A stretch of 40,096 nt of DNA from Saprospirales bacterium (GTDB lineage Bacteria > Bacteroidota > Bacteroidia > Chitinophagales > Saprospiraceae). Of the stretch, positions 1,445 to 39,200 are shown piece after piece. The stretch covers positions 1 through 40,096 of the forward strand of contig PAAY01000073.1 of assembly GCA_002698985.1 (NCBI GenBank), in the 5' to 3' direction. The position numbers and the translations under genes were made by a program. Numbering within the stretch: position 1 is the stretch's first letter; each line of letters starts with the position of its first letter. The notes beneath the pieces are model-generated. The model was not told the origin of the DNA. It saw only the letters and a program-made list of their open reading frames with translations, and searched no databases.

Positions 1445-2362
1445 ATGGCGAAAAAGCGAAAAGGTACAACGACCAGTTCTTTCGGAGTGAACGGCCGGAT
1501 CAATCACGATTCCAGCAAGTTCTACAATTCCCGTTTGTACACCGAGTTGGGCATCAAGGCCAGCAAAAAAGGCGAGCCCGATCAGCCATTCCCGGAAAAA
1601 TACCTCAACAAGGTCATCAAGGCCAGTGCAGAAAACATGAAGCACCTGCCCGATAATTCGGTGCACCTGATGATCACCTCTCCGCCCTACAACGCCGCCA
1701 AAGATTACGATGAAGACCTCTCCCTCAAAGAATACCTGGCCCTGCTGGAGCAGGTGTTCCGGGAGACCTACCGGGTGCTGGTGCACGGAGGCCGGGCCTG
1801 CATAAACGTGGCCAACCTGGGCCGCAAGCCCTACATACCGCTCACCACTTTCATCACGAAAATGATGATGGACATCGGCTTTCTGATGCGGGGGGAAATC
1901 CTTTGGGACAAAGGTGCCAGCGCAAGTTCATCCACGGCCTGGGGCTCCTGGAAAAGCGCCTCCAACCCCATCCTCAGGGACGTGCACGAGTACATCCTCA
2001 TTTTCTCAAAAGGGGACTACAAACGCCATTTGACGAAGGAGCAAAAAACCGTAAAGAAGAACAGCATCGGCAGGGACGAATTCCTGGAATGGACCAAAAC
2101 CGTCTGGCAAATGCCCGCCGAATCCGCCCGTAGGGTAGGGCACCCGGCACCCTTCCCGGAAGAACTGCCCCGTCGCCTCATTCACCTCTATTCCTTTGAA
2201 ACGGACATCGTGCTGGACCCCTTCATGGGCAGCGGCACCACCGCCGTGGCAGCCCTGAAATCCGGCCGCAATTTCGTCGGCTACGAAATCATGCCTGATT
2301 ACCTTAAACTGGCCCGAAAACGCATTGCGCAAGCGAGGAAAGGCGTGACACGTAACTCGTGA
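1445..2362 (+). CDS. Orphan DNA methyltransferase (beta-class N4-cytosine/N6-adenine type)
   Basis: S-adenosylmethionine-dependent DNA amino-methyltransferase of 305 residues. Catalytic motif IV is SPPY at residues 79-82, and the AdoMet-binding motif I region is DPFMGSGTT at 258-266. The order IV before I, with the variable recognition region between, is the beta-class arrangement. SPPY is commoner in N4-cytosine enzymes and DPPY in N6-adenine enzymes, so m4C is a reasonable but unproven guess. No restriction endonuclease, specificity subunit or Vsr gene is adjacent, so it is probably a solitary methylase with a regulatory or protective role. The N-terminus is basic (MAKKRKG). The last residues (VTRNS) and the TGA stop are encoded by the intergenic TCGTGAC-type repeat, so the original C-terminus may have been replaced. 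Confidence 0.88.
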   Translation: MAKKRKGTTTSSFGVNGRINHDSSKFYNSRLYTELGIKASKKGEPDQPFPEKYLNKVIKASAENMKHLPDNSVHLMITSPPYNAAKDYDEDLSLKEYLALLEQVFRETYRVLVHGGRACINVANLGRKPYIPLTTFITKMMMDIGFLMRGEILWDKGASASSSTAWGSWKSASNPILRDVHEYILIFSKGDYKRHLTKEQKTVKKNSIGRDEFLEWTKTVWQMPAESARRVGHPAPFPEELPRRLIHLYSFETDIVLDPFMGSGTTAVAALKSGRNFVGYEIMPDYLKLARKRIAQARKGVTRNS

Positions 2363-2446
2363 CTCGTGACTCGTAACACGTGACTCGTGACAACCATGAC
2401 GTTCATGGCAGGTGATGGCAGCGCCTCCAACTCTACTCCCTACTCT
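2344..2446. repeat. TCGTGAC and CTACTCC tandem repeats between methyltransferase and SDR genes
   Basis: Positions 2344-2391 hold tandem variants of GTGACTCGTGACTCGTAACA, and 2430-2468 hold five to six copies of the 7-mer CTACTCC (GGGAGTA on the other strand). The two genes are convergent, and each runs into its own repeat: the first family encodes the methyltransferase tail, the second the SDR tail. The same TCGTGAC family recurs at 36070-36117. No hairpin-T terminator is visible. Confidence 0.85.
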
Positions 2447-3445
2447 CTACTCCCTACTCCCTACTCCCACCAGCCATTCCACCGTTTTTCGTAGCCCTTC
2501 GGGCAATGGGGTAGGTTGGTAGCCCAGTTCCCGTTCCGCCTTTTCGGTGGAGAGCTGCCAGTTGTAGAGGTATTTGCGGACCCAGGGCGGCGTCAGCAGC
2601 GGGTCCTTGTTGGTGAGGTCGGCTCGTATTTCCATCAGCCTGGCGGCAAAATTGATGACCGGGATGGGGATTTTGAAGAGGCGCTGTTCTTTGCCAGTGA
2701 CTTGGGCGAGCAGTTGGAAAAATTCATTGAAAGAAGCGTTGTCGCCACCCAGTATGTAACGTTCACCGGGGCGGCCTTTCTCCATGGCCTTCAGGTGGCC
2801 TTCCACCACATCGTCGATGTAAACATAGTTGCCGATGCTGGAGCCATCTCCGGGGATGAGCCTGAATTTTCCTTCCAGGTACATCTTCACCATGCGGGTG
2901 ACGCCGTTGCTGTCGCTGAGCAAACCGGGGCCGTAAACCCGGGTGGGATTCACCGTGATGATCTCCAGCCCTTCTTTCGAGACCAGTTTCTGCACCTCTT
3001 TTTCGGCTTTGGCTTTGGAGCGCTCGTAATGGGTAAAATGCTCCACCCACCTGGGAGTGGTCTCATCCGAAGGTACGCCGTCTTTGCTGGGACTGATGAC
3101 CCCGGCGGTGGAGGTAAAAACGATTTTGCTGACTCCGGCCTCCAGTGCGGCGTGAAATACATTCAGCGCCCCGTCAACATTCAGCCGGTAAAAGGTCTGG
3201 TCGTCTTTGGCCCAGGGCTTGGCGAAGGCCGCCACATGGAATACCGCATCAGTGCCTTTGACGGCCTTTTTGAGGCTGTCGGGGTCCAGCAAGTCACCTT
3301 TGAACAGGTGTACGCCTTCCTTCGGTAAACCCCCGGTTTTCTTCTCACTCCGGTAAAGGGCATGCACCTCATGCCCGCCAGCAACCAACTGCTCCGTCAA
3401 TTGCTGACCGATGTATCCTGTGGCTCCTGTGATGAAATACTTCAT
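2447..3445 (-). CDS. NAD(P)-dependent epimerase/dehydratase (extended SDR)
   Basis: 332-residue extended short-chain dehydrogenase/reductase. The Rossmann dinucleotide motif TGATGYIG is at residues 6-13 (Gly7, Gly10, Gly13). The catalytic Tyr140 and Lys144 are in HYERSKAK, preceded by the serine-containing strand TSTAGV. NPTRVYGPG near 167 is the usual post-catalytic segment. It resembles the dihydroflavonol-4-reductase/3-beta-HSD-like group, which act on ketones or NDP-sugar-like substrates; the real substrate is not evident. It is monocistronic, with a repeat array on each side. The final residues (VGVGSRE) and the TAG stop are read from GGGAGTA repeat units, so the C-terminal tail is repeat-derived. 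Confidence 0.85.
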   Translation of the reverse strand: MKYFITGATGYIGQQLTEQLVAGGHEVHALYRSEKKTGGLPKEGVHLFKGDLLDPDSLKKAVKGTDAVFHVAAFAKPWAKDDQTFYRLNVDGALNVFHAALEAGVSKIVFTSTAGVISPSKDGVPSDETTPRWVEHFTHYERSKAKAEKEVQKLVSKEGLEIITVNPTRVYGPGLLSDSNGVTRMVKMYLEGKFRLIPGDGSSIGNYVYIDDVVEGHLKAMEKGRPGERYILGGDNASFNEFFQLLAQVTGKEQRLFKIPIPVINFAARLMEIRADLTNKDPLLTPPWVRKYLYNWQLSTEKAERELGYQPTPLPEGLRKTVEWLVGVGSRE

Positions 3446-3454
3446 GTGGTTTAA

Positions 3455-3775
3455 GCACCTGCGGTGCGTTTAGGCTCGGCTTCGCCATTGCGTTTACACT
3501 TGGCTTCGCCTTCGTGTTTAGGCACCTACTGTGCGTTTACACTTGGCTTCGCCTTCGTGTTTAAACCTGCGGTGTTTACAGTAGCGCAGCCTTTAGGCTG
3601 CGCAAGTCCGGCGACCTTCAGGTTGCCGGAAGATGATGTGGCAAATCCTGTTAACGACCTGAAGGTCGTATTACCTGCACAGCCTAAAGGCTATGCTACT
3701 GGCACAACCTGAAGGTCGTATTACCTGCACAGCCTGAAGGCCATGCTACTGGCACAACCTGAAGGTCGTGCTACT
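3455..3775. repeat. Array of small CC-loop-GG hairpins with GTTTA spacers
   Basis: This 320-base region upstream of the SDR and downstream of the metalloprotease holds no gene. It is a run of short hairpins with 3-5 base loops: GCACC-TGC-GGTGC (about 3455), GGC-TTC-GCC nested in CAC/GTG, GCGCAGCC-TTTA-GGCTGCGC (about 3585-3604), GGCGACC-TTCA-GGTTGCC, ACGACC-TGAA-GGTCGT and AGCC-TAAA-GGCT. The left part (3455-3578) is punctuated by GTTTA; the right part repeats CTGGCACAACCTGAAGG with period about 54-55 bases. The final unit supplies the TAG stop of the metalloprotease at 3771-3773. Confidence 0.85.
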
Positions 3776-7436: not shown

Positions 7437-7486
7437 GGAAACGGAAAGTTTTATAGGCCCTGACTGGGCCGGTTTTGCATACCGGG

Positions 7487-7494
7487 CAAAGCTA
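7487..7494 (-). promoter_or_regulatory. -7 element TAGCTTTG for the metalloprotease
   Basis: Exact TAnnTTTG on the minus strand, 50 bases before ATG 7436. It supports the 7436 start over upstream in-frame ATGs. The same octamer precedes the DUF255 gene at 30253-30260. No good -33 box is seen. Confidence 0.5.
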
Positions 7495-7539
7495 AGGAAC
7501 GCCAACTGGACTGCCAGCAGGAAATTGCCGGGCAGGGCA

Positions 7540-7905: not shown

Positions 7906-7926
7906 ATGAAACAAAACAATTGGGTC

Positions 7927-9612: not shown

Positions 9613-9791
9613 GTGTAGCGCCCTCAGTAAAAAGTCATTCCACGTTGGAGTTGACTGCAAATGTCGTTGGCTGATCCCGGGCCATGTCCGGCAAGTTGAG
9701 AGCAGCCTGTTCCGGGAATCGGGATGCATCCCGGCATTCGCCAGGAGGTTTTGAGCCATACTCTCAACCCTCTCAACCCCTTTCAACCTCA
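9613..9791. other. Intergenic space between convergent genes
   Basis: Holds no gene. There is a 14-bp perfect palindrome, CGGGATGCATCCCG, at 9720-9733. Adjacent to the S9 peptidase stop are degenerate CTCTCAACCC/TTTCAACC repeats (9758-9790); on the coding strand of that gene these read GGTTGAGAGG and begin immediately after its TAG. No T-tract terminator is visible. Confidence 0.6.
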
Positions 9792-11834
9792 CTACTTCTT
9801 ATGCTTCTCAAACCAGCCCAGCACGTAAAGCACTTTCGACATCAGGTAGCTCGGTTTCCTTGCAATGCCGTGTGAGGCCTCCGGAAAACGAACCATGGCC
9901 GCATCCACCCCCGCCAGTTTCAGGGCGGTGTAAAACTGCTCCGATTCCTCGATGGGGGTCCGGTAATCCACCTCGCCGGTGAGCAGCATGGTGGGTGTTT
10001 TCACATTGCCGGCATAGGTGATGGGAGAGCGCTTCATGTAGTGCTCCAGGTGGTCCCAGGGCAGGCCGGGGAACCAGTAGCGGTAGAAAAATGCCGGGTT
10101 GTCGGCGGTGAGCACAAAGCTGTACCAGTTGATGACGGGCTTGGCCACCACTGCGGCCCGGAAGCGGTCGGTGTGGCCAACGATCCAGGCGGTGAGCACG
10201 CCGCCGCCGCTGCCGCCGGTCACAAAGAGGTTTTCTTCGTCAACATTGCCGGAGGCGATGACGGCATCCACCACGCTCATCAGGTCGTCGAAATCGTGGT
10301 TGGGGTAGTTGTGGTGGATCTCGTTGCCAAAATCGCTGCCATAGCCGGAGCTGCCCCGTGGATTGGCATACACCACGATGTTGCCGGAAGCAGCATAGAG
10401 CTGGATTTCGGCAGCGAAGTGGTCACCGTACATGGCAAAGGGCCCGCCGTGGATTTCAAGAATGAGCGGGTATTTTTTCGAAGGGTCAAAACCCGGCGGG
10501 TAACAGACCCAGTATTGAATTTTCAGGTCGTCGTAGCTGCTGTTGCACCAGTGCTCTTCCACTTTGCCGAGGCTTTTGTGCCCAAACAAATCTTCATTGA
10601 AGCGGGTGATGCGGTTGACTTTGCCATCGGCAGAGCAGGTGGCCAGGTCGGCAGGGTGGGTGGCATCGCCGTGGGTGAAGGCAATGCGCCCGTTCCGGGA
10701 AACGGAGTAATCGCCGCCGCTGTATGGACGGCCAATGGACAGGCCGCTGACTTTACTGGTGATGTCACGACTTTTGCCGTCGAGGGTCATAAAGGCCACT
10801 TTTGTTTGGCCCCGGTCGTCGTATTGGAAGTAGATTCCTTTCCCATCGCCGCTCCAATGAATGTTTTCGATGCTCCGGTCAAAATCACCGCTGATGAGGC
10901 GGGGATTGGAGCCGTCCCGGTTCATGACGTACAGCCGGCTGATCTGGTAGCCGAGGTATTGCTCGTCGTGGCCGGTATAGGCGATCAGCTTCCCGTCGGG
11001 TGACAACACGGGATTGCTGTCGGGGCCCTTTCTGTTGGTCAGGGCCTTTGGCTCGCCACCGTTCAGGCTCACTTCGTAGATCTCGCTGTTGGCGGGTTCG
11101 GTTTCAGCGTCGGGGTGGCGGTTGGAGGAAAAGATCAGGCCCTGCCCGTCGGCACTCCATACCGGATTGCCACAGTCGTAAGGCCCTTCGGTCAATTGCC
11201 GTGGGGTGCCACCCTCCACCGGCAGCACAAAGAGCTGACGATGACCGGGCCGCAGGTAGCCGGCGCCGTCGCTGCGGTACTTCAGGTCGTCGATGTATTT
11301 GGGGGCCTCGGCCCATTTGGCGCCCTTGGGCGCTGGGGGCAGCTTCACCAGGCTGCTTTTTTCTTCGGAAACGAATAGGGTGAAAGCCAGCCACTTGCCG
11401 TCCGGCGACCACACCGGCTGGCCGGGGGACTCGGTCAGGTTGGTGAGCATGGCCTCCTCACCGCTGGCCACCCAGCGAAGGTAGAGTTGGGTTTTGCCCG
11501 ATTTGTCAGAACGGTATGCCAGCATGCTGCCGTCCGGTGACCAGGCCGGGGAACTGTCGTTGTGCAGGCCGGAACTCAGTGGCCGGACTTCGGTGCCGTC
11601 AAAATTGGCCATCCACAGGTTGCCCAATGTCCGGTCGGTCATCACGTCCCGGTAGTTGCGGATGAAGGCCACTTTCGATCCGTTCGGCGAAATGCTGGGG
11701 TGGGAGACGTGCTCCAGCTCGAAAATGTCCATCGGCTGGAAGGTGGACACCGTGGCCTGCTGCCCTTTTGCCGAAGGAAATGAAAGCAGGAAGGTGCAGA
11801 ATAGTGCGGTGATGAGGGTTGGGATGCGAATCAT
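9792..11834 (-). CDS. S9-family serine peptidase (prolyl oligopeptidase/acylaminoacyl-peptidase type)
   Basis: Exported peptidase of 680 residues that should cleave short peptides. A signal peptide covers residues 1-24 (MIRIPTLITALFCTFLLSFPSAKGQ). Residues about 35-410 form a beta-propeller of PD40/TolB-like blades with recurring S-PDG motifs (PSISPNGSKVAF, PAWSPDGSMLAY, PVWSPDGKWLAF, PVLSPDGKLIAY). Residues about 430-680 are the alpha/beta-hydrolase domain. The triad is visible: Ser542 in GGSGGG, Asp623 in GEVDYRTP and His655 in EASHGIA. EIHGGPFAMYGD is the oxyanion-side HGGP motif. Length and order are typical of DPP IV/acylaminoacyl peptidase-like enzymes of Bacteroidota. A composite repeat lies upstream and a GGTTGAGAGG repeat begins at its stop codon. 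Confidence 0.92.
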   Translation of the reverse strand: MIRIPTLITALFCTFLLSFPSAKGQQATVSTFQPMDIFELEHVSHPSISPNGSKVAFIRNYRDVMTDRTLGNLWMANFDGTEVRPLSSGLHNDSSPAWSPDGSMLAYRSDKSGKTQLYLRWVASGEEAMLTNLTESPGQPVWSPDGKWLAFTLFVSEEKSSLVKLPPAPKGAKWAEAPKYIDDLKYRSDGAGYLRPGHRQLFVLPVEGGTPRQLTEGPYDCGNPVWSADGQGLIFSSNRHPDAETEPANSEIYEVSLNGGEPKALTNRKGPDSNPVLSPDGKLIAYTGHDEQYLGYQISRLYVMNRDGSNPRLISGDFDRSIENIHWSGDGKGIYFQYDDRGQTKVAFMTLDGKSRDITSKVSGLSIGRPYSGGDYSVSRNGRIAFTHGDATHPADLATCSADGKVNRITRFNEDLFGHKSLGKVEEHWCNSSYDDLKIQYWVCYPPGFDPSKKYPLILEIHGGPFAMYGDHFAAEIQLYAASGNIVVYANPRGSSGYGSDFGNEIHHNYPNHDFDDLMSVVDAVIASGNVDEENLFVTGGSGGGVLTAWIVGHTDRFRAAVVAKPVINWYSFVLTADNPAFFYRYWFPGLPWDHLEHYMKRSPITYAGNVKTPTMLLTGEVDYRTPIEESEQFYTALKLAGVDAAMVRFPEASHGIARKPSYLMSKVLYVLGWFEKHKK

Positions 11835-11837: not shown

Positions 11838-12147
11838 TTGAGGATTATTAGGATTATGGAGGATTATGAAGATTATGAAGGATTATGAGGATTATGGGGA
11901 TTATGCGGTTTAGCAGGAATACGCTGCTCAACGCTGTTTTTTAAAATGTTTAGAGTGTAGGGTTGAGGGTGTAGGGTTTGGGCGCTAGCTCAGTGAAACT
12001 CTGTGTTCAAACTCTGTGAAATAACTCTGTTTAACTCTGCGGTTAAAAAAAGTGTAGGGTTTAGAGTTTGGAGGAGCTAGCTCTGGCTACGAGCCACAGC
12101 CTGCCCCGAGCACTCGGGGAGCCACGAGCAAAACCAGGAGCTATGAC
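11838..12147. repeat. Composite intergenic repeat, copy 1
   Basis: A modular element of about 300 bases. In plus-strand order: GGATTAT units (11838-11903); TTTAGCAGGAATACGCTGCT (about 11909-11928); TTTAGAG/GTGTAGGG units; GGGCGCTAGCTCAGTGAAAC; AACTCTGTG units ending GCGGTTAAAAA; more TTTAGAG; then CTAGCTCTGGCTACGAGCCA and GAGCCACGAGC units. All modules recur in the same order at 13150-13460 on the other side of the CDF gene. No gene is present. The minus-strand CDF gene ends directly against this element. Confidence 0.85.
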
Positions 12148-13116
12148 CTAAACAAGGCTACCCTCCGAGTGCCGCTCGTTGGAGGAGATGTTTTCCACCG
12201 TCCAGACGAGGGTTTTTACGAATGGTTTTTTGCGTTCGGGGCAGTTGGCTTTTTGGCAGATGGGGCAGGCCGCCGGGCGGCAGGGATCGGTGTGAACGAA
12301 CATTTCCACGCTATCGCCGAACTGTTTTTGCACCGTGCTTTCGATGGCATCCAGTTCGGTGTGGGCATCTTTCACGCTCATGTACCAGGGCACGGTGAGG
12401 TGGAAGTCCAGGTGCAGCACCGCTCCGTATTTGATGATGCGGAGGTTGTGGATGTCGATCCAGTTTTCCTTGCGGTTTTTTTGGAGCCAGTCCACCAGTT
12501 TGGCCAGGAGTTGCTCATCGGCTTCGTCCATCACACCTGCTATGGAGCTCCGGACTATCCTGTAGCCCGTGAAAATAATGACAATGGCAAAAATGATGGC
12601 CACGAGGCTGTCGATCCACAGCCAACCGGTGAAACGCAGCAGAATCAGCCCGCCCACGATGCCGACAGTGGTCCAGGTGTCGGATTGGAGGTGGCTGCCA
12701 CTGGCCACGAGTGCCAGGCTGTTGTTTTTGCGGCCTTGCCGGATGGCGATCCAACCCACGATGAAATTGGCCACCGCCGATATTGCGACGAGAATGATTC
12801 CCTCATCGAGGTTCCCAATGGGTTCGGGACTTCGCAGGCGCTTTAGCGCTTCGTAAATGATGAGGACACCGGCAATGGTAATGAGCGCCCCCTCGATACC
12901 GGCAGAGATGAATTCCACTTTACCGTGGCCGTAAGGATGCTCCCGGTCACGGGGTTTGGCGGAGACGTACAGGCTGTAAAGCCCAATGAACCCCGCAGCT
13001 ACATTCACCGTGCTTTCCATGGCATCCGTCAGCACGGCCACGGAGTCCGTCAGCAACCAGGCCACCACTTTGATGGCAAACAGCGCCAGCCCCACGCCGA
13101 CGACGAGCCATTGCAC
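12148..13116 (-). CDS. Cation diffusion facilitator (CDF) family metal/proton antiporter
   Basis: Inner-membrane exporter of a divalent metal such as Zn2+, Fe2+ or Mn2+, 322 residues from GTG 13116. Six hydrophobic segments fill residues about 1-190, followed by a cytoplasmic ferredoxin-like domain with PWYMSVKDAHTELD and FVHTDPC. Aligned by eye to E. coli FieF, the transport-site pairs are Glu34/Asn38 in TM2 (FieF Asp45/Asp49) and His142/Asp146 in TM5 (FieF His153/Asp157). The E/N pair is unusual beside FieF. A Cys cluster near the C-terminus (C-x4-C-x2-C-x4-C within PCRPAACPICQKANCPERK) may bind metal. No ATG exists upstream before a TAA near 13150, although the intervening codons (IKTAKQNIKV) look family-like, so the 5' end may have been altered by the repeat. 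Confidence 0.88.
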   Translation of the reverse strand: MQWLVVGVGLALFAIKVVAWLLTDSVAVLTDAMESTVNVAAGFIGLYSLYVSAKPRDREHPYGHGKVEFISAGIEGALITIAGVLIIYEALKRLRSPEPIGNLDEGIILVAISAVANFIVGWIAIRQGRKNNSLALVASGSHLQSDTWTTVGIVGGLILLRFTGWLWIDSLVAIIFAIVIIFTGYRIVRSSIAGVMDEADEQLLAKLVDWLQKNRKENWIDIHNLRIIKYGAVLHLDFHLTVPWYMSVKDAHTELDAIESTVQKQFGDSVEMFVHTDPCRPAACPICQKANCPERKKPFVKTLVWTVENISSNERHSEGSLV

Positions 13117-13149: not shown

Positions 13150-13460
13150 GGATTATGAGGGTTATAAGGATTATGGAGGATTATGGAGGATTATGGAGGA
13201 TTATGGAGGATTATGGGGTTTAGCAGGAATGCTCTGTTCAACGCTGTTTTTCAAAAAGTTTAGAGTGTGGGGTTTAGAGTGTAGGGTTTGGGCGCTAGCT
13301 CCGTGAAACTCCGTGTTCTAACTCTGTTTAACTCTGCGGTTTAAAAAAGTTTAGGGTTTAGGGTTTAGGGTGTAGGGTTTAGAGTTTGGAGGAGCTAGCT
13401 CTGACTACGAGCCATGAGCTACGAGCTACGAGCTCTGACTACGAGCTACGAGCCACTTCA
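13150..13460. repeat. Composite intergenic repeat, copy 2
   Basis: Same module order as copy 1: GGATTATGGA units (about 13152-13216, nearly perfect), TTTAGCAGGAATGCTCTGTT, TTTAGAGTG/GTAGGG, GGGCGCTAGCTCCGTGAAAC, AACTCTG units, four clean TTTAGGG units near 13350, GGAGGAGCTAGCTCTGACTA, then CTACGAGC units to 13453. The last units overlap the coding end of the AlkD-like gene and provide its TAG stop. With copy 1 it brackets the CDF gene as a direct repeat. Confidence 0.85.
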
Positions 13461-16820: not shown

Positions 16821-16866
16821 GAAGACCTTGCATGCAAGGTTTCTACTGGGCATGTAAGGTCTCTAC
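16821..16866. repeat. Palindromic GCATGC repeat at the 3' end of the 100-residue gene
   Basis: On the minus strand it reads TAGAGACCTTACATGC, then TAGAAACCTTGCATGCAAGG. The 16-bp perfect palindrome ACCTTGCATGCAAGGT is at 16825-16840. The first TAG is the stop codon of the neighbouring gene. The same unit recurs at 20220-20288 after the TonB receptor. Confidence 0.8.
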
Positions 16867-17165
16867 TGACGGGTGTACATCAATATGGCTCCCAGTGCGG
16901 TAATGAGTACGATCAGCCCGGTGGCCAGTTTTACGGAGTATTGGATGTGGCTGCAGAAGGTGCGGATTTCAGCTTGCATGTTGGGGTAGCGGGGGATGAT
17001 CTCAGCTTCCAGCTTTTGCTTGTTGAAGAGGTGGGCGGCTCCGAATTCAACCCGGTTTTCCACCAGTTTCTTGTAGAGCTTGAAGACTTTTATTCTGAAA
17101 TAAAAATTCAGGAAGAGCAAAGCCACAAAAAGTGCGGCTATGATCACCATGAGCAGTTTGGTCAT
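16863..17165 (-). CDS. Small membrane protein, two predicted transmembrane segments
   Basis: 100 residues, unrecognised family. Hydrophobic helices are at residues about 3-24 (MVIIAALFVALLFLNFYF) and about 78-96 (VKLATGLIVLITALGAILMY), joined by a charged loop with a likely amphipathic helix. The -7 box TATCTTTG at 17185-17192 lies 19 bases upstream of the ATG and supports expression and start. The stop codon TAG belongs to the repeat unit TAGAGACC. The function is unknown. Confidence 0.68.
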   Translation of the reverse strand: MTKLLMVIIAALFVALLFLNFYFRIKVFKLYKKLVENRVEFGAAHLFNKQKLEAEIIPRYPNMQAEIRTFCSHIQYSVKLATGLIVLITALGAILMYTRQ

Positions 17166-17279: not shown

Positions 17280-17517
17280 TTGCGATTCCTCAGATCCTCA
17301 GCGCACTCCAAAAGTGCGCTCAGTGGTTGAGAAGGGTTGAGAGAGGTTTAGAGAAGTTGAGAGGGGTTGCGCTCGATCGCCCCTATATCTCAAAAATCAA
17401 GACTTTAGGATGAGCTCAACTTCTTTTAATTCACGGAACTTGCGCCAATTCCAACAAAAAAAGACTTTTTGCAGTGTCCTCAGATCCTCAGATCCTCAGA
17501 TCTTCAGATCCTCACCC
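17280..17517. repeat. TGAGGATC and GGTTGAGAGG repeats after the TonB receptor
   Basis: The region holds CAGATCCTCAG units (17288-17303 and 17476-17516) and GGTTGAGAAGGGTTGAGAGA-type units (17322-17370). Between them, 17380-17475 has no recognisable gene. On the receptor coding strand the repeat begins at its stop: TGA, GGG, TGAGGATCTGAAG. Confidence 0.75.
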
Positions 17518-20219: not shown

Positions 20220-20288
20220 GAAGACGTTTGCTGTCTTGTACAGACGTTGCATGCCTTGTACAGACGTTGCATGCAAGGTCTCTACGGG
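20220..20288. repeat. GCATGC repeat after the second TonB receptor
   Basis: On the minus strand: TAGAGACCTTGCATGCAA, then two copies of CGTCTGTACAAGGCATGCAA-like sequence. It begins four bases after the TAA stop of the receptor. Shares TAGAGACCTTGCATGCAA in part with 16821-16866. Confidence 0.8.
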
Positions 20289-26610: not shown

Positions 26611-26825
26611 CGTATAGTTGATATGTTGACCTTGCCCCCCAAACTCTAAACCCTACACCCTAAACTTCTTAACCACAGAGTTTAATAGAGTTGTTTCACG
26701 GAGTTGCACATAGTTTTGACACGGAGTTCCACGGAGCTAGCGCCCAAGCCCTAAACCCTACACCCTACACCCTAAACCCTAAACTCTACACCCTAAACTC
26801 TAAACTTACTTGCAGTGCAACTGCT
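26611..26825. repeat. Composite repeat copy in inverse orientation with CCCTAAA units
   Basis: On the minus strand this matches the 3' half of the composite element: GTAGGGTTTAGGGCTTGGGC, GCTAGCTCCGTGGAACTCCG, several AACTC(C/T)GTG units, CTGTGGTTAAGAAGTTTAGG and GTAGGGTTTAGAGTTTGG. Plus-strand CCCTAAAC/CCCTACAC units fill 26643-26666 and 26747-26812. There is no GGATTAT module and no gene. Confidence 0.8.
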
Positions 26826-27939: not shown

Positions 27940-28124
27940 TTGGTTTATAGGGATTATGGAGGATTATAAAGGATTATAAAGGATTATGGAGGATTATGGA
28001 GGATTATGGAGGATTATGGAGGGCCAAGGGTATAGGCTGCTGCTCCTCGATTCCTCAAATCCTCCCCCGATCCCGAAGGATTTCGGGATTCGGGGCTCGA
28101 TTCCTCGATTCTTCAGTTCCTCAT
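27940..28124. repeat. GGATTATGGA array and GAGGAACTGAG/CCCGA repeat
   Basis: About seven GGATTATGGA/GGATTATAAA units lie at 27948-28023, upstream of the VWA gene. After them come ATTCCTCAAATCCTC-type units and the palindromic segment ATCCCGAAGGATTTCGGGAT (28071-28090) up to 28124. On the coding strand of the DUF255 gene this starts just after its TAG as ATGAGGAACTGAAGAATCG. Confidence 0.85.
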
Positions 28125-30230
28125 CTACTTCATTAATTCAAGCGCCCTGTCCACCTCTTCCACAGGCAACTTACAGACCTTGTTCTGACAAACGTAAATG
28201 TAAGTGGCGCCATCCTGCAGCTTGTCCTTCAACAACTCGAGGCTGCCTTCGGTTTCACCGCCCAGCAACATGGCGTTGGGCAAATAGTTCGTCAGTAGGG
28301 CATCCCGTTTTTGTTGGGCCTCTGGCCCGACGATGGCCACTTCATAAGGCATGCGCAGACAATCCATGTACACCTGGCACCACATGGAGTAGTAATCCGG
28401 AGCGTTTGACTGGTGAATTTGCCCGGCCATGGCGGCCATCAGACCACGGGCCTTGTCCATCCACTCCTGATTGTAGAAATAGTCACCCAAAATGAGCAGG
28501 TTGTGGGTCATGACCGAATTGGAACCCGGGATGACGTTGTCGGTGATTTCCTTCTTGCGGGTCACCAGCGGCGGGTCCAGGTCGGAGGTGTAAAAGAAGA
28601 AGCCCGTCTCGTCATCGGTAAAGTGGGTGAGGGCGTATTCGGTGAGGTCTTTGGCGTCGTAGAGCCACTTTTCATCAAAGGTCACTTCGTAAAGTGCGGT
28701 GAAGGCTTGTGCCGTCAGTGCATAGTCGTCCAGGAAAGCGTTGATGGAAGATTTGCCGTCTTTGAAATTGCGGTTCAAGCGGTGGTCTTCCTGCATCATG
28801 TTTTGCCGAAGGAAATTACCGTTTTTGAGCGCCATGTCGAGGTAGGCTTTTTCTCCGAAGGCACGCCAGGCATCCACCAGGCCTTTCAGCATCAGGGCGT
28901 TCCAGGAGGTGAGCACCTTGTCGTCGAGGCGGGGACGGATGCGCTTGCTGCGTGCTTCGAACAGTTTCTCTTTCGACTTCGCAATGGAGGCCTCCGCATC
29001 CGTCAGGCTCATGTTGTGCTTTTGGGCCACACTCGCCAGGTCTTTCCGTATGTGCAGGATGTTTTTGCCCTCTTCCCAGTTACCTTTTTCTGTCACTTCG
29101 TAAAAATCGCAAAACAAGGCAGCGGCGGCCGGGTCTGCCAGCACCTGGTCTATCTCTGCCTTCGTCCAAACGTAGAACTTGCCTTCTACCCCCTCGCTTT
29201 GGGCATCCAGCGAGGAGTAAAAGCCGCCTTCCGGTGAGGTCAATTCCCTTTTTACGAATTCAATGGTTTGGGCAGCTATGTTGCGATACAGTTCTTTGCC
29301 GGTTACTTGGTAAGCATGGGCATAGAGGCTGACCAACTGGCCGTTGTCATAGAGCATTTTTTCAAAGTGTGGAATCTGCCAGCGTTCATCGGTGGCATAG
29401 CGGGCAAAACCACCGCCCAGGTGGTCGTAAATGCCGCCGGCAGCCATTTGATCCAGGGTGGTTGTCACTGCTTCGAGGGCTTTCAGGTTGCCGTTGTAGT
29501 GGTGGTATTCCAACAGGAACTCGTAGTTGGCAGGCATGGGGAATTTGGGTGCTCCCTGGCGACCTCCCCAGCGGTAGTCGATCTTCTGGAGCAAAGCCTC
29601 CGCCACGTCATTCATCACCTCATCCTCAAAAGCTGCATTGGGTGATGCTCCCGGCACTTCATCGCTCTGACCGATGCCGGCGGTCAGGTCGTTGGCGTAT
29701 TGGGTGACCTTTTGCGGATCGTTTTGCCACTCGTTTTTGAAGTATTCCAGAATTTCCATCCAGTTTTTCTTCGGAAAATAGGTGCCGGCCCAAACCGGAC
29801 GTCCGTCGGGCAGGGCAAAGGCGTTGAGGGGCCAGCCACAACCACCCTGTGCCGCCAGTTGGCAGGCGGTCATGTAGATGTCGTCCACATCGGGGCGTTC
29901 TTCACGGTCCACTTTTATTGCGACGAAATGCTCATTCATGATGGCGGCCACGGTGGAGTCCGAAAAGGATTCTTTTTCCATCACATGGCACCAGTGGCAG
30001 CTGGAATAGCCGATGCTGATGATGAGCAGCTTGTTTTCTTCCTTTGCCTTTTTCAGGGCTTTTTCGCCCCAGGGGTACCAGTTGACGGGGTTGTGGGCGT
30101 GTTGCAGCAGGTAGGGGCTGCTTTCGTGGATGAGCTCGTTGGTGTAAGCGTGCTGGCCATCCGAAGAAGTGGTTTTGCACGCTGCTAGGCTGATTATTGC
30201 GACGAAAAAGAAAAAGCGAAAAATGTACAT
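28125..30230 (-). CDS. DUF255 thioredoxin-domain lipoprotein (YyaL/SSP411 family)
   Basis: 701 residues. Predicted lipoprotein: [18 protein letters not shown] with lipidated Cys18. A thioredoxin-like DUF255 domain follows (about 28-190): [20 protein letters not shown], redox CxxC at Cys78/Cys81 (SSCHWCHVM), [11 protein letters not shown] and [15 protein letters not shown]. The remainder is an (alpha/alpha)6-barrel-like glycosidase fold seen in YyaL/spermatogenesis-associated protein 20 homologues ([47 protein letters not shown]). Length and order match the family; the biochemical role of the family is poorly defined. The lipid anchor places this one outside the cytoplasm. Its promoter is in the divergent region shared with lysA. 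Confidence 0.9.
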
Positions 30231-30252
30231 GCCAGAGAGTTTGATAAGGCCC

Positions 30253-31686: not shown

Positions 31687-31687
31687 G

Positions 31688-32353: not shown

Positions 32354-32396
32354 TCCTGCAATCCCAAACGAACGATAAAAAATCAAGCTGAACAGT

Positions 32397-35147
32397 ATGT
32401 CTGCAAACCATTACGATCCGTCGAAGACTGAAGAGAAGTGGTACCGGCACTGGGAAACCAAGAAGTATTTCAGAAGTGTACCCGATGAGCGTGAACCCTA
32501 CACCATTGTGATTCCGCCTCCCAACGTTACCGGGGTGTTGCACATGGGGCACATGCTCAACAACACCATCCAGGACGTGCTCATCCGCCGTGCACGAAAG
32601 AAAGGCTACAACGCCTGCTGGGTGCCCGGAACCGACCATGCCTCCATTGCGACGGAAGCCAAAGTGGTGCAGATGCTGCGCAAGCAAGGCATCAAAAAGA
32701 GCGATATCTCCCGTGAGAAGTTCCTCGAATACGCCTTTGAATGGAAGGAAAAATACGGCGGTATCATTCTGGAGCAGCTCAAAAAACTCGGTGCCTCCTG
32801 CGATTGGGACCGCACCCGCTTTACCATGGAGCCGAGCCTCAGCAGGGCAGTGATCCATGTGTTCGTGGACCTCTACAAAAAGGGCAAACTCTACCGGGGC
32901 CTGCGCATGACCAACTGGGACCCTGAGGCCAAAACCGCTCTCTCCAACGAAGAGGTGATCTACCGGGATGAGCCTTCACAGCTCTTCCACATCCGGTATC
33001 CACTGGCCGATGACCCCTCCAAAGGCATCGTAATCGCTACGCAACGGCCGGAGACCATCATGGCGGACACCGCCATCTCCGTGCACCCTGAAGATGAACG
33101 CTACAAAGACTGGGTTGGCAAAACGGTGCTGATCCCGCTGATCAACAAGCCCATTCCGATCATTGCCGACGAATACGTGGACCGTGAATTCGGTACCGGT
33201 GCCTTGAAGATCACCCCGGCACACGACCCCAATGACTACGAAATCGGGCTGCGCCACGGGCTGCCGGTTGTGGACATCCTCACCGAAGACGGCAAACTGA
33301 ACGAACAGGCGCAAATCCTCGTTGGCGAAGACCGCTTCGAGGCCAGAAAGAAAATCAAGGGCCTGCTGAAGGAAGCCGGAGCACTGGTGAAACTGGAAGA
33401 CTATGTTACCAGCATCGGCCATTCGGAGCGCACCGATGCCGTTGTGGAACCACGGCTGACGATGCAGTGGTTCCTCGAGATGAAGGATTTTGCGCAGGTA
33501 GCCCTGGATGCCGTTAAATCAGGCGAAGTGAAGTTCTTCCCCGAAAGCATGTGGAACATCTACTACCAGTGGTTGCGTCCGGAAAACGTGCGTGACTGGT
33601 GCATCAGCCGCCAGCTGTGGTGGGGGCAGCGCATCCCGGCCTGGTACCTCAAAACCGAGGATGGCCGCTGGACGGTGGACGGCGAAGAAGTGCCTTTCGT
33701 AGCCGAAACGGCCGAAGAGGCCCTGGCCATTGCGAAGGAAAAAACCGGTAACCCCAACCTGACCCTCGCAGACCTGGAACAAGACGAAGACGTGGTGGAC
33801 ACCTGGTTCTCTTCCTGGCTGTGGCCCATCTCCGTTTTCGACGGTTTCGAGCGGCAGGATGAGCTGAAATACTACTACCCGACCAATGCCCTTGTAACGG
33901 GCTGGGACATCATGTTCTTCTGGGTGGCCCGGATGATCATGTCGGGTTACGAATACGCTGAAGAATTGCTCGGCGAGGACTGCAAAGGCCGCCAGCCGTT
34001 TTACGATGTGTATTTCACCGGCATGGTGCGGGACAACAAGCGCCGCAAGATGTCCAAGTCGCTGGGCAACTCTCCCGATGCGCTGGAACTGCTGGCCAAA
34101 TACGGGGCCGACGGCGTTCGCTTCGGTCTGCTGCTGTCAACCTCTGCGGGCAACGACATCATTTTCGACGCACCTTTCGATCCGAAAACGAATGCTGTTC
34201 TCAACGAAAGCAAGATCTGCGAGCAGGGCCGCAACTTCTGCAACAAGATCTGGAATGCCCTGCAACTGGTGAAAAGCTGGGAAGTGGCAGACAGCCCGCA
34301 ACCCGAAACCAACCGCCTGGCCGTGCAGTGGCTGGAAAACAAGTTCAACCGCATGCTGGCGGAAGCCGAATCCAACTTCAAGCAGTACCGCCTCTCTGAT
34401 GTGCTGATGAGTTTCTACCAGCTCTTCTGGGTGGATTTCTGCTCCTGGTTCCTGGAGGTCATCAAACCGGCTTTCGACGATAACGGCAAGCGCCTGCCCG
34501 TGGACCAGGCCACCTACGAGTTCACGCTGAAAACTTTTGAGAAATTCATGTCCGTGCTGCATCCGTTCATGCCTTTTGTGACGGAAGAAGCCTGGCATGC
34601 ACTTCGTGACAGGGCCGAAGGTGATGACGTGATCGTAAGCCCCTGGCCGGAAGCTGCTGCCTTCGACGAAGCTGTGATTCGACCATTCGAACAGGCCAAA
34701 GACATCATCAGCAAGGTGCGTGAGGCTCGTCAGGGTCGTGGCATTTCACCGAAGGAAGCCCTGAACCTTTTCGTCGATGCCAGTGAGGATGGGAAACAAC
34801 TGCTCGCTGTTCCAGGAGTGTTGGATCTCCTTCGGAAAATGGCCAACCTGGATGCCGTAGAGCTCACCTCCGATGAGCCTGCTTCCACAGTTTCTTTCCT
34901 CTCAGGTAAGGTCAAGCTGTACCTCGAAATCGCTTCGGCCATCGATGCTGAGGAGGAAAAAGCCCGCATCCAAAAAGAGCTGGACTACTACCGTGGTTTC
35001 GTGGAGAGCGTCAGGCGCAAGCTGAGTAACGAGCGCTTCGTCAACAACGCCCCGGAAGCAGTGGTCAACAAAGAGCGCCAGAAACTGGCCGACGGAGAAG
35101 AAAAAATCCGCCTGCTGGAAGAGAGCTTGGAAAGACTCGGGAGTTGA
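32397..35147 (+). CDS. valS: Valine--tRNA ligase
   Basis: Class Ia aminoacyl-tRNA synthetase charging tRNA-Val, 916 residues, normal length. Signature His49-Met-Gly-His52 (PPPNVTGVLHMGH); CP1 editing domain about 190-345 (TQRPETIMADTAI, GTGALKITPAHDPND); tryptophan-rich segment WCISRQLWWGQRIPAW; second signature Lys551-Met-Ser-Lys-Ser555 (RRKMSKSLGN); anticodon-binding helical domain about 600-790; C-terminal coiled-coil arm about 850-916. Last gene of the lysA operon. No T-box or attenuator is seen in the 43-base gap. The TGA stop falls inside a GAGTTGAAGAACTCAAGAAT repeat, so the transcript ends in repeat sequence instead of a terminator. Confidence 0.97.
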   Translation: MSANHYDPSKTEEKWYRHWETKKYFRSVPDEREPYTIVIPPPNVTGVLHMGHMLNNTIQDVLIRRARKKGYNACWVPGTDHASIATEAKVVQMLRKQGIKKSDISREKFLEYAFEWKEKYGGIILEQLKKLGASCDWDRTRFTMEPSLSRAVIHVFVDLYKKGKLYRGLRMTNWDPEAKTALSNEEVIYRDEPSQLFHIRYPLADDPSKGIVIATQRPETIMADTAISVHPEDERYKDWVGKTVLIPLINKPIPIIADEYVDREFGTGALKITPAHDPNDYEIGLRHGLPVVDILTEDGKLNEQAQILVGEDRFEARKKIKGLLKEAGALVKLEDYVTSIGHSERTDAVVEPRLTMQWFLEMKDFAQVALDAVKSGEVKFFPESMWNIYYQWLRPENVRDWCISRQLWWGQRIPAWYLKTEDGRWTVDGEEVPFVAETAEEALAIAKEKTGNPNLTLADLEQDEDVVDTWFSSWLWPISVFDGFERQDELKYYYPTNALVTGWDIMFFWVARMIMSGYEYAEELLGEDCKGRQPFYDVYFTGMVRDNKRRKMSKSLGNSPDALELLAKYGADGVRFGLLLSTSAGNDIIFDAPFDPKTNAVLNESKICEQGRNFCNKIWNALQLVKSWEVADSPQPETNRLAVQWLENKFNRMLAEAESNFKQYRLSDVLMSFYQLFWVDFCSWFLEVIKPAFDDNGKRLPVDQATYEFTLKTFEKFMSVLHPFMPFVTEEAWHALRDRAEGDDVIVSPWPEAAAFDEAVIRPFEQAKDIISKVREARQGRGISPKEALNLFVDASEDGKQLLAVPGVLDLLRKMANLDAVELTSDEPASTVSFLSGKVKLYLEIASAIDAEEEKARIQKELDYYRGFVESVRRKLSNERFVNNAPEAVVNKERQKLADGEEKIRLLEESLERLGS

Positions 35148-35614
35148 AGAACTCAAGAATTGAGGAACTGAAGATCTGAGGAACTGAGGGACACATGGTA
35201 CGGTGTTTCGGGACTCAGCCATCCGTTCGATTTTCCTCAGTAGCGGCCAGAGGCCGCAACTTAGATGCGTCACCGAGCAAAGCTCGGGACGAGCCGCAGG
35301 TTCATCTTGGTAATTTTGTACAATGATTGTCCGGAGAGAACCGGGGGCCGAATGCGCTCGGATCGTCGCCAGCGGGGAGTGCTAGTTCCTCGATTCCTGA
35401 AACCACTGCAAAAAGTCATTTTCGATTTGAGTGGGGCAAGTTCCGTTTTTTTGGAAGTTGAATTATTCTAAAATTTTGGTTTAGAGCTATTTAGGTTCAT
35501 CAGAGCGCAACCCCTCTCAACTTCTCTAAACAACTCTAAACCCCTCTAAACGAATGAGGGCACTCATTCCTCGATTCCTCCCTGCCTGTCGGCAGACAGG
35601 GATTCCTCATTAAA
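35140..35614. repeat. Mixed repeats downstream of valS
   Basis: A gene-free stretch. 35140-35190 holds GAGGAACTGAAGATCTGAGG-type units starting at the valS stop. Hairpins GCGGCC-AGA-GGCCGC (35243-35257) and CCGAGC-AAA-GCTCGG (35273-35287) follow. 35300-35500 has no recognised feature. 35505-35560 carries CCCCTCTCAACTTCTCTAAA units, and CCTGTC-GGCA-GACAGG is at 35585-35600. ATTCCTCGATTCCTCC units reach the lipoprotein gene end. Confidence 0.7.
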
Positions 35615-36055
35615 TCACTGCGGAGCAACAATCTCCCCGTCCTTTGAAAGCACCATCACCGTTTCAAAATCAGCGGGTGCTTCCATGCTTTCATCTTCAG
35701 CTTTGTACATGATGCGGTAGTTTTCACCGTCGGCAATTAGGAAAAAGTAGTCGCCGCCTCCGGCCCACCAGCCACCCACGGCTGATAAGGCTGTGTCCGG
35801 GATGTTTTGCGAAGCGTATTCACTTTTATCCATGCTCATGCAAATGGTGACGTCTGCCACTTTGAGCTGGTAGTCGCCCATTCGCACGTACACTTCGCTC
35901 AGCGGAGAATCCGGGTGTTCATCTGCATTGCGGACTTCCTTGCAAATGAGTTCCGGTGTTTCGGATACTCCGTTTTCGGTCTGTTGCTGCTCCCCATCTG
36001 CAGGTTGAGAGCATGCACCGATTATCACCAACAAAGAAAAGATCAGGTATTTCAT
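35615..36055 (-). CDS. Small lipoprotein of unknown function
   Basis: 146 residues. Lipobox IIGAC with lipidated Cys15, then a polar linker (SQPADGEQQQTENGVSETPE). The globular part has LICKEVRNADEHPD, MGDYQLKVADVTICMSMDKSEY and GGWWAGGGDYFFLIADGENYRIMYK, probably an all-beta domain. No family recognised. It sits alone between two repeat blocks; no -7 box is visible, and its upstream sequence is wholly repeat. Confidence 0.7.
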   Translation of the reverse strand: MKYLIFSLLVIIGACSQPADGEQQQTENGVSETPELICKEVRNADEHPDSPLSEVYVRMGDYQLKVADVTICMSMDKSEYASQNIPDTALSAVGGWWAGGGDYFFLIADGENYRIMYKAEDESMEAPADFETVMVLSKDGEIVAPQ

Positions 36056-36061
36056 GGTTCA

Positions 36062-36266
36062 GTTTTTTTCGTGACTCGTGACTCGTGACTCGTAACACGT
36101 GACGCGTAGCTCGTAGCAAGCTCTGCTAAAAATCCTCAATTAACCACAGAGGACCAGGAGTTAAAGACAGAGTTGAACAGAGTGATCCTGCGTCAACCTA
36201 CAACCTACAACCTACAACCTACAACAACCTCCATAATCCCTATAATCCTCATAATCCTCATAATCC
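36062..36266. repeat. Composite repeat, inverse orientation, between FG-GAP gene and lipoprotein
   Basis: Plus-strand order: GTGACTCGTGACTCGTAACA units (36070-36101), GTAGCTCGTAGC, AATTAACCACAGAGGACCAG, CAGAGTTGAACAGAGTGATC, CTGCGTCAACCTACAACC units (36189-36225), then CTCATAATC units (36235-36270). This is the mirror of the GGATTAT-first order at 39700-40010. The last GGATTATGAG units abut the TGA of the FG-GAP gene. Confidence 0.85.
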
Positions 36267-39200
36267 TCATCTCCCCACCAACACCACCGGCGTGTCATTG
36301 TTCCTTGCAACGATGAGGAGAGGAGTGTTGCCATTTTCCAGCAAAGCAAAATCACGGATTTCGCCTTTTATTTTGATGCCGCTTTGGGCTGGTGGCAGCC
36401 ATGTAAAGGTGCCGTTGCCATTGCCTTTCAGGTAGCAGCCGAAGCTGGCGTCGTACTGGCCCATTTCCGGTTTTACATTGAGCAGGTTGCCGCCGAGCAG
36501 CAGGTCTATGTTTCCATCTCCATCGAAGTCATTGGGAAGGATGGCGTAAACGGGGGAGAGTTGCGCCTCCAGCGGCAGGTTCTGCACTTTGAAGTTGCCG
36601 TTGCCGTCGTTGATGAGGAGGCTGCTTTGCAGGCGCACAACCTCGTGTACGATGCTGTTTTTCAATTGCTCCAGCGTGAAAAGGTCTTCGATGGTCTGGC
36701 CTTTGTAGCTCTCGTATTTCAGGTATTTCTTCTTCATTTCCGTCATCTGTGAGATGAGGTCGTGGCGCAGCACCAGGGGGTAGGACTTTTCGCCGTTGTA
36801 CTGGCAGATGATCTGCTCCACGGAGCCGTTCTGGTCGAAGTCATTGATGTAACAGGAGATGGGTTTTTCTTCGGAAGCCCTGAACCTGGAATTGAGGCCG
36901 TGGCCACCGGCTATCAGGTCCATGTCGCCGTCGTTGTCCACATCTGCGGCTTCCAGGCAATTCCACCAGCCGCTGGTCTGTTGGAGGGCAGGGTAGGGGT
37001 GTTCGTTCAGTTTTCCGCCCTCATTCAGGAACAATTTGACAGGCATCCACTCTCCGGTCAGGGCCAGGTCCTGGTCGCCATCGCCATCGGCATCCAGCCA
37101 GACGGCGTCGGTCACCATGCCCACTTTGCGCAGCGACGGAGCCAACTGGTCGGTGACATCGGTAAAGTTGCCCTTGCCGTCGTTTTGGAGCAGGTAGCTG
37201 TTTGGCGGAACGCCGTAATAAAAAGGCAGCACCCGCACCCCGACGAAGAGGTCCAGATCGCCATCGCCATCGAAATCGGCGGCCTTCACGCAACTGCTGC
37301 TTTCCAGCCGGCCGGCGGGCTGCACGGTTTTGGTATCGGTGAAATTACCACGGCCATCGTTGAGGTAAAGGCGATCTTTGAGGGCGAAGTTGCCCGCCGA
37401 AAATTCGTTGCCTCCGCTGGCCACATAGAGGTCCAAATCGCCGTCGCCATCGGCATCGAAAAAGGAGGCGCCGAGGTCCTCAGCTCCGGCACTCTCCTCC
37501 CAAAGTTTCTGGTTGGTTGGCCGGAAGCTGCCGCCCGGAAGTTGGACGAACAGCGCGGCCGGACTGTCTTTGGCATTGCCGAAGAAAACATCTGTCAGGC
37601 CGTCGCCATTTACATCGCCGGTGGCAATTTTTGGCCCTTCCGTTGAAATCATGTGGTAGATCAGGCGGTCGCGGTCAAAGTCCACGAAGAGGTTTTCCTT
37701 GTGCCGCCATTGCGCCAGCGAAGAAGAAAAAGGCTGGAAAAGGGGATTGCCGATACTGTGCTGTTGTTTGCACATGGCCAGGTATGCTTCCCCACCAGCA
37801 ACGGCATCCTGCTCTTTCAGGCTCAGCTGCTGGTTGACGGGCACAGCAGTGAGGCGGCTCATTTTTCCGGAGTACCAGATGACGGCCAGGCTGTCTATGA
37901 CGGTGGCATCGCCAAGTCCGAGGTGGGCCCGGTAGTCCATGGAGGATTCAAAGCCACGGATGGGGTTGTGTTCCAGGTAGAAGCAGTTGCCGCCAGCCCA
38001 GGCGTAAATTTTGGCGCCGACGGCATAGTTGTTCGGTGCTTCCCCGGTCAGGGTCAGTTCCAGCCAGTTGCGTTCGGGGTGGAAGGTTTCCGTGTTATTG
38101 CGGTAGAGGAAGGGCGGCATGTTGAGGTTGTTGACCACCAGGTCCAGGTCGCCGTCGTTGTCGAGGTCGGCATAGGCGCTGCCGTTGCTGAAGCCGGGTT
38201 TTGCAATGCCCCATTCTTCTGCACGGTTCACGAAAGGGCGTTGCAGGGAGGTGTCTGAAGGATCCCAGTTGCCGGTGTTTTCGAAGATGTAATTGGGTAC
38301 CGGTTCCGAGGGAATGAATTCCACCAGTTTGCGGAAGTCCACCCCTTCCCGGCTGATGACGGCCTTTTTGGTTTCATCGGCAGCGATGAACTGGAGGAAA
38401 TCCTGGTCGGTGAGGTCCTGGTAGATACCGTTTGCGACGAAAATGTCTTTGTGGCCGTCGTTGTTGAAATCCTGTATGAGGGCGCCCCAGCTCCAGTCTG
38501 TGGCTTCCACACCGGATAGGCGGCCAATTTCACTGAAGGTACCGTCGCCGTTGTTGCGTTGCAGCATGTTGCGGGTGAACTGGCGGTAGTAGTCGCTTTT
38601 GATACTCAGTTGGAGGCGGTTCCAGTTGTCGAAGGTGGTTTTGGTTTTGATGCGGTCTTCGTCCTGTGGCAGCATTTCCGTAACGAAGATTTCCGGCCAG
38701 CCGTCGCCGTTCATATCTGCACAGTCGGCGCCCATGCTGGCAGCGCTGATGCTGGCCATCTGTTGTGGCAGCTCTTCACGGAAGGTGCCGTCGTGGTTGT
38801 TGATGTAGAGGTAGTCCCGCTCGAAAAAGTCATTGGAAACGTAGATGTCCTGCCAGCCGTCGAGGTCCACATCGCCGATGGTGACGCCGAGACCGAAGCC
38901 GACGATGCTGCCGTAAATGCCGGCCGCTTCGCTGACGTCTGTAAATTTATTCCCGTCGTTGCGGAACAGCTTGTCGCCGCCCACGGAATCCCTTTCCAGG
39001 CGCTCGTTGACTTCAAAATCAAAGCTGCCGATGGCTCGGAATGAGTTGTTGAGAAGGTACATGTCCAGGTCGCCGTCTTTGTCGTAATCAAAGAAAGCGG
39101 CGTGGGTGCTGAGGCCGTGGTCGGCAAGGCCGTATTCGGCGGCTTTTTCTTCGTAAACAGGAATGCCTTTTTCATCGCCTTCGGCAACGCCATTGCTGAT

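Follow-up and report, generated by a model that had tools for sequence, protein, structure and literature searches.

The window analyzed here, the whole 40,096-nucleotide (nt) stretch of contig PAAY01000073.1 from a Saprospirales bacterium (contig 79 of a draft genome of 4.83 Mb in 102 contigs), carries short tandem-repeat arrays at many of its gene ends. A sequence-only reading of the window had noted that such arrays start at stop codons and run in one direction, an observation that is confirmed in a sample of the genome, where one rule holds at both ends of genes: the G-rich strand of the array reads outward from the gene. With a probability of roughly 0.5, we consider these arrays to be high-turnover repeats of the heptamer or long simple sequence repeat (LSSR) type, mostly with units of 7-10 nt, that are tolerated and whose polarity is fixed only at gene edges.

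Placement and polarity of the arrays

Arrays were called with Tandem Repeats Finder at a score of 40 in a genome sample comprising the window and 40 stretches of 20 kb (822 kb after trimming of overlaps), and at a score of at least 30 for the window's named genes and the per-gene stop counts. The window and 20 stretches formed set A (440 kb), and 20 further stretches were held out as set B (382 kb); the stretches were drawn from contigs known through a repeat search and may favor repeat-rich contigs. Gene calls relied on a home-made hexamer score, which leaves starts less certain than stops. Each array was oriented by its G minus C content with stop codons as tie-breaker, a rule that was settled once set A had been seen and was next used on set B; counting stops alone was given up as an orientation rule because, in the GGATTATGGA family, TAA lies on the opposite strand. 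Polarity counts exclude arrays with more than 60% of their length in a called gene (31/183 in set A), among them the SDR and AlkD arrays of the window. Family labels, given by regular expressions made for the analysis, were assigned to 180 of the 254 arrays in the placement test, in which two arrays are counted twice owing to a 1-kb overlap of stretches L098 and L122; this double count is absent from the polarity figures (69/75, 27/30, 44/47 and 27/32).

Among orientable arrays with an edge from -80 to +10 nt of a stop codon, the G-rich strand was sense in 69/75 (set A, 35 sense and 5 antisense; hold-out set B, 34 sense, 1 antisense and one tie), and the sister species G003 gave 21 sense and 3 antisense. 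Near starts we found the mirror polarity, the G-rich strand being antisense in 27/30 arrays (13/16 in set A, 14/14 in set B), and eight further species of the genus, sampled over a combined 684 kb, behaved similarly, with 44/47 near stops and 27/32 near starts, so the class of element is not specific to 3' ends as had been proposed from the window. More than 25 nt from stops the polarity was reversed (38 out and 71 in for set A; 29 out and 67 in for set B), because such arrays are often close to the neighboring gene, and beyond 100 nt from both genes it was gone (27 vs 26).

Array edges fell at -25 to +10 nt of stops 76 times, compared to 47.7 (sd 5.3) under random placement in the same intergenic regions, a count that 0/2000 permutations reached, and were depleted at starts (15 vs 26.7). 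Neither a lack of enrichment at stops nor an equal frequency at starts and in both orientations, the outcomes that the sequence-only reading had named against itself, was therefore seen. At a score of 30, 88 of the 524 sampled genes had an outward array at the stop. Density differed by gene arrangement, with 20 arrays in 33 kb of divergent, 169 in 79 kb of tandem and 63 in 17 kb of convergent intergenic sequence. In intergenic regions with two or more arrays, the first and last faced each other in 58/76 and stood in the opposite arrangement in 1, and array orders of the form +...- numbered 68/75, compared to 38.7 after shuffling.

As a control, the valS flanks of other Bacteroidota (1.2 Mb, 84 arrays), in which genes were called by length only, gave 7 sense, 5 antisense and 2 ties. 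Saprospirales-like valS flanks (8 arrays) gave 3 sense and 0 antisense, with one locus (L001) probably identical to contig 25 of genome G007, and in further genera of this family, 11 arrays in 212 kb from 10 genomes included 2 sense and 1 antisense near stops, numbers too small for a judgment.

The units themselves are diverse: 75 distinct consensus units were found among 175 arrays in this genome, and congener units are mostly private (71 distinct in 77 arrays). The GGATTATGGAGGATTATGGA unit occurs in 115 copies in the genome, 54 of them forward and 61 reverse (0 when the pattern is reversed), and in 10 copies in the sister species, while an exact search with the 20-nt pattern found none in 38 further relatives, and the eight congeners were likewise without it. 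Among 62 orthologs with readable 3' ends, an outward array was present in both sister species in 14, only here in 9, only in G003 in 4 and in neither in 35, and recurrence at the same stop was significant between these two species only (p = 0.0002; counts 13, 10, 4 and 36). Of 17 orthologs with an array of any polarity in both, the family label differed in 9, of which three are weak (GGGAGTAG and GTGTAGG being near relatives) and a fourth (DUF255) looks by eye like one and the same family. Clear switches were found at AlkD (CTCGTAG here, GGGATGA in G003), at the FG-GAP gene (GGATTATG here, GGAGTAG/GTGTAGG in G003) and at L085:5733-6824 (GGGATGA here, GAACTGAG in G003). Separately, many arrays in G003 (L132-L138, L125-L131) hold inserted palindromes such as TCCCGACATTCGTCGGGA, as though elements resembling repetitive extragenic palindromes (REPs) enter arrays.

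Strand choice, hairpins and competing explanations

We then asked what fixes the polarity at gene edges. TGA or TAG, said to be present in most units, was indeed found in 174/221 outward units; this is only partly special, as shuffled letters give 140.4 and the congener count (71/104) equals its shuffled expectation of 71.0. Similarly, arrays do overlap and provide stop codons, but this is largely reading-frame logic: across all ten genomes, the stop-richer strand was sense in 73 of 74 decided cases of arrays overlapping a stop, because an open reading frame (ORF) can terminate within an array only if that array has stops on its sense strand. In the 7 overlapping arrays for which the G and stop criteria were at odds, stop content prevailed in 6. 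Consistent protein ends were seen for 8 array-bearing genes with orthologs outside G003, whose readable array-free orthologs have their stop at the corresponding site to within a few residues. Before starts, the C-rich strand was sense in 58/66 arrays regardless of stops (all ten genomes); this follows a general constraint, as array-free leaders are G-poor too (G 0.176, C 0.258; n = 341), whereas array-free 3' flanks are unskewed (G and C 0.230 each; n = 253).

In some congener intergenic regions the whole space is filled by a single long hairpin consisting of tandem units, a loop and inverted tandem units. With a rule requiring a shuffle z of -3.5 or lower, at least 18 pairs and a periodic arm, we found 17 such tandem hairpins, distributed over five of the eight species, in 318 congener intergenic regions 40-350 nt long. 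The stem lay -15 to +13 nt from 22/22 adjoining stops, compared to 47/97 stops that close for plain strong hairpins; the first arm had G > C in 17/17, the 5' arm was purine-rich in 15/17, and a T-run was present at 0/22 tandem hairpin ends (17/97 for plain strong hairpins). Strong hairpins in congeners were found in 29/49 convergent and 3/50 divergent regions. This genome has 7 tandem hairpins, with 2/9 stops within the same range. As a separate observation, two long inverted repeats (G006 L145:10794-10942 and G012 L154:7253-7509) share the ends GCGAGGAGGAT/ATCCTCCTCGC with differing inner units, and are possibly a small mobile element.

Together, these observations can be accommodated by the reading of tolerated, high-turnover repeats. 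Slippage and template switching would generate the arrays, and purifying selection would keep them out of coding sequence and divergent promoter regions. An array over a gene end would have to place its stop-carrying strand in sense, since the ORF can end only there; arrays before starts would be C-rich in sense, as leaders are normally G-poor and C-richer even when array-free; and, since congener arrays often form an inverted pair as the two arms of one hairpin, the polarity set at one gene edge would recur in mirror image at the opposite edge. Some units may have spread as shared families here and in the sister species, such that the arms are no longer complementary and polarity survives only near genes. 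If the arrays are merely tolerated, they would provide a record of the sequence that is allowed at gene edges, stop-carrying over ends, G-poor in leaders and without preference in between.

Several results weigh against this account. For arrays beginning 0-9 nt past the stop, the G-rich strand was sense in 55/61 (all ten genomes), and where the two criteria were at odds (15 arrays), G content predicted the polarity in 12, which the stop-strand rule does not cover; the polarity just past stops is thus not fully explained and would have to arise indirectly via inverted pairs. The facing arrays of this genome show no excess complementarity, so the inverted-pair rule must be historical here. Recurrence of arrays at the same genes across the genus was not significant (3/14 vs 11/69, p = 0.70). 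Lastly, arrays and terminators tend to exclude each other, suggesting a 3'-end role that tolerated repeats do not need.

The last point rests on counts that omit 152 gene ends where the intergenic region is shorter than 60 nt. In these counts, 2/73 genes with an array at the stop had a hairpin-T terminator, as did 13/81 with an array elsewhere within 250 nt and 39/209 without an array (Fisher p = 0.0004 for 2/73 vs 39/209); the absence of stop repeats from genes with such a terminator, first noted at three genes of the window, therefore extends to the genome sample. This exclusion fits either arrays that substitute for terminators or arrays that displace them. It provides a rationale for a tentative alternative, in which the arrays, and the hairpins in congeners, are selected 3'-end elements for ending transcripts or for stopping 3' exonucleases; selection would act on architecture, with the element beginning at the stop and its purine-rich arm leading, and not on sequence. 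The position of tandem hairpins at every adjoining stop, their purine-rich 5' arm and the prevalence of strong hairpins in convergent over divergent regions favor this view, as does the higher frequency of transcript starts and stops at quadruplex-forming repeats given in PMC4692102. On the other hand, tandem hairpins end without a T-run, arrays of mirror polarity are found at starts, and recurrence at orthologous stops does not reach past the sister species.

Folding speaks against it as well. Hairpin formation as the cause of polarity in this genome was rejected, as 57 facing pairs (one region counted twice owing to the 1-kb overlap) gave an observed value of -20.3, compared to a mean of -21.0 after re-pairing, with 62/100 re-pairings at or below the observed value. 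Inverting the right array in silico in 47 regions left folding unweakened (-80.4 kcal/mol native vs -82.8 kcal/mol inverted; native folding lower in 20/47). A hairpin form of the terminator that the sequence-only reading had offered is thus unsupported in this genome. Given the terminator exclusion, the arrays may still have a 3'-end function, and we hold a reading without function slightly above it because the folding evidence fails in this genome. If the arrays do act, they would represent many independent inventions of a 3'-end element from unrelated sequences, in which selection on architecture could be separated from selection on sequence. In a more far-reaching form, which we regard as somewhat doubtful, the genus would rebuild its gene 3' edges by architecture, each region having its own 7-10 nt unit arranged as a purine-first inverted pair from the stop and serving as a two-way transcript end and insulator, while sister species swap families but keep position and polarity.

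Alternatively, the arrays may be born at stops, either through a duplication that includes the stop and seeds the array or through a mobile process that inserts there, which we consider unlikely. The excess of array edges at stops is in line with this idea, as are the recurrence of the stop triplet one period on in 43/79 overlapping arrays (0-3 at neighboring offsets) and the scarcity of TAA stops at genes with an array (7/88, compared to 160/436 elsewhere). However, such a register is trivial under overlap and absent for the arrays that begin 0-9 nt past the stop (55 of the 134 outward stop-side arrays), where it was found in 3/55, which does not support the seeding of these arrays from a stop and speaks against the insertion targeted to stops that had been suggested from the window. 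Arrays also lie at starts and mid-region, and neither terminal inverted repeats nor target-site duplications were observed, although no systematic search for them was made. A telomere-like addition of G-rich repeats at both ends of intergenic breaks, with the ends then rejoined, would account for the facing arrays (58/76, opposite in 1), and TTTAGGG-type units presumably resemble telomere repeats, yet growth from both ends is disfavored by the loss of polarity mid-region (27 vs 26) and the avoidance of divergent regions, making this explanation highly improbable.

Arrays at the named genes of the window

Of about thirteen window genes said to have a repeat at the stop, 11/13 did have an array (Table 1), 9 of them outward and 2 with palindromic units; the gene at 16863-17165 was scored as inward and TonB receptor 2 (20289-22652) as a tie. 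The remaining 2, the CDF gene (12148-13116) and 35615-36055, have degenerate units alone, below the threshold. Beyond these thirteen, the gene at 26826-27923 has an array 19 nt past its stop. Pfam supports 11/13 of the gene names, and a Pfam match was lacking for the 100-residue protein and the 35615 protein. The final domain ends before the array in the metalloprotease (Por_Secre_tail to residue 1301 of 1303), and the C-terminal arm of valS reaches 915 of 916 residues, indicating that the protein is complete ahead of its array; array-free valS orthologs stop at nearly the same position, to within a few residues. At TonB receptor 2, G003 lacks the AGACGTTGCATGC units, and the stop there leads directly into a hairpin-T sequence common to both species.

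Table 1. Tandem arrays at gene edges in the window (distances from outward arrays to stop codons in nt)
Position	Strand	Array	Gene edge and remarks	Edge to stop
2344..2392	+	TCGTGAC/TCGTAAC heptamers	over methyltransferase stop (2360-2362); same family at that stop in G003	-19
2433..2468	-	GGAGTAG heptamers	over SDR stop (2447-2449); codes for last residues	-22
3657..3775	-	25/50-nt units with palindromic CCTTCAGG parts	begins at metalloprotease stop (3771-3773)	+1
9761..9788	-	GGTTGAGAG	past S9 peptidase stop (9792-9794)	+3
11840..11905	+	GAGGATTATG	adjoins S9 peptidase start (11834); G-rich strand outward from gene	
13150..13216	+	GGATTATGGA	near cation-efflux gene start (13116); outward	
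13405..13455	-	CTCGTAG	over AlkD stop (13426-13428); GGGATGA units there in sister species	-30
16823..16868	-	AGACCTTGCATGC palindromic 20-nt units	over stop of 16863-17165; not outward by G content	
17477..17514	-	TCTGAGGA octamers	past TonB receptor 1 stop (17518-17520)	+3
20222..20285	-	palindromic AGACGTTGCATGC units	past TonB receptor 2 stop	
26749..26806	-	GTTTAGG/GTGTAGG	past stop of 26826-27923 (VWA protein)	
27951..28022	+	GGATTATGGA	upstream of 26826-27923 (start 27923); outward	
28096..28122	-	GAATCGAG/GAACTGAG octamers	past DUF255 stop (28125-28127)	+2
35145..35187	+	TGAAGAAC octamers	first triplet is valS stop (35145-35147)	-3
36069..36114	+	TCGTGAC	adjoins start (36055) of 35615-36055; outward	
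36194..36225	-	TAGGTTG heptamers	after the 36232..36270 array	
36232..36270	-	GGATTATGA	over FG-GAP stop (36267-36269); GGAGTAG/GTGTAGG units there in sister species	-4
39699..39743	+	GGATTATGGA	adjoins FG-GAP gene start (39677); outward; more copies up to 39969	

Longer composite repeats are present as well. At 26302-26581, a 59-nt unit is repeated five times and joins GTTTAG with palindromes of the CGCC-TTCGG-CG type, like the composite arrays of 51-58 nt in L097 and L085. A 137-nt composite module occurs at 11898-12034 and 13208-13344 (85% identical), in successive intergenic regions and in the same orientation to the genes, and pieces of it with AACTCTGTGG-type units were found again elsewhere in the genome. 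Near the start of the window, an aminotransferase class I/II frame (258-1400) is broken by a single in-frame stop (831-833) with both parts matching PF00155, and may be a pseudogene or the result of a sequencing error.

Relation to known repeats

Tandem intergenic heptamers include the short tandemly repeated repetitive (STRR) heptamers of cyanobacteria. That no described system resembles the arrays, as the sequence-only reading had supposed, does not hold: PMC4692102 and PMC4679880 describe such repeats, in Xanthomonas and Nostoc with a near-identical layout.

TAACTGA direct repeats are described in PMC4679880 for Beggiatoaceae, Cyanobacteria and some Bacteroidetes, along with long arrays and further heptamers between genes of Bacteroidetes. 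Their forward strand carries stops in all frames, which limits gene-end overlap to 18 nt or less; in 13 sets the repeats extend over the upstream gene's stop, for which the same reading-frame logic was argued. As with TAACTGA, the stop-bearing strand overlaps gene ends in sense only (73/74 here). Unlike the present arrays, TAACTGA repeats lie mostly just upstream of starts, forward, with one conserved unit, and are discussed in terms of translational control. The unit is absent from the 12 most frequent consensus units here, and one AACTGAC array was found in the sample. LSSRs (Mrazek et al. 2007, via PMC4679880) have units of 5-11 nt, heptamers being the most frequent, occur sporadically in bacteria and are ascribed to slippage; in contrast to our observations, the summary in PMC4679880 makes no mention of gene-edge polarity or stop anchoring.

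REPs, including those in bacterial interspersed mosaic elements (BIMEs), are also repeated intergenic elements near stops, and those within 15 nt of stops are said to stall ribosomes (Liang, Rudd and Deutscher 2015, via PMC12306157), but they are single palindromes of 20-40 nt from one family and not private tandem arrays. For REPs mobilized by a REP-associated tyrosine transposase (RAYT), a single palindromic family would be tied to a Y1 transposase gene; one weak PF01797 match was found in the genome (E = 3.4e-7). A hairpin followed by a T-run, as in intrinsic terminators, was found at 2/73 genes with a stop array, and a T-run at 0/22 congener tandem hairpin ends. In the literature searched, which covered few subscription journals, private tandem-repeat hairpins at stop codons were not described.

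The closest likeness is to the GGGAATC heptamers of Xanthomonas and the GGGGA(C/T)T repeats of Anabaena/Nostoc (PMC4692102, PLoS One 2015). These are intergenic and under-represented within genes and in the space separating divergent ORFs; their G-rich strand is sense within 50 bp of stops, including all stop-overlapping repeats, and antisense within 50 bp before starts, and transcripts began or ended more often at quadruplex-forming repeats than at control repeats. The present arrays are likewise short, intergenic tandem units (31/183 coding in set A), depleted in divergent regions (20 in 33 kb vs 63 in 17 kb convergent) and G-rich in sense near stops (69/75) and in antisense near starts (27/30). 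They differ in that each of those genomes uses one quadruplex-capable unit, whereas here at least a dozen families of 7-10 nt units and longer palindromic ones coexist, with private congener units and hairpin pairs; by inspection, units such as TCGTGAC or TGAAGAAC have no GG runs long enough for a G-quadruplex. As read from the published unit, that of Xanthomonas has no stop triplet on either strand, unlike most units here. What looks new is that many unit families in one genome follow the layout, as do eight congeners (44/47) with mostly private units, some of them in the form of the 17 stop-adjoining hairpins with tandem-repeat arms, and the polarity published for Xanthomonas and Nostoc is thus independent of the particular unit.

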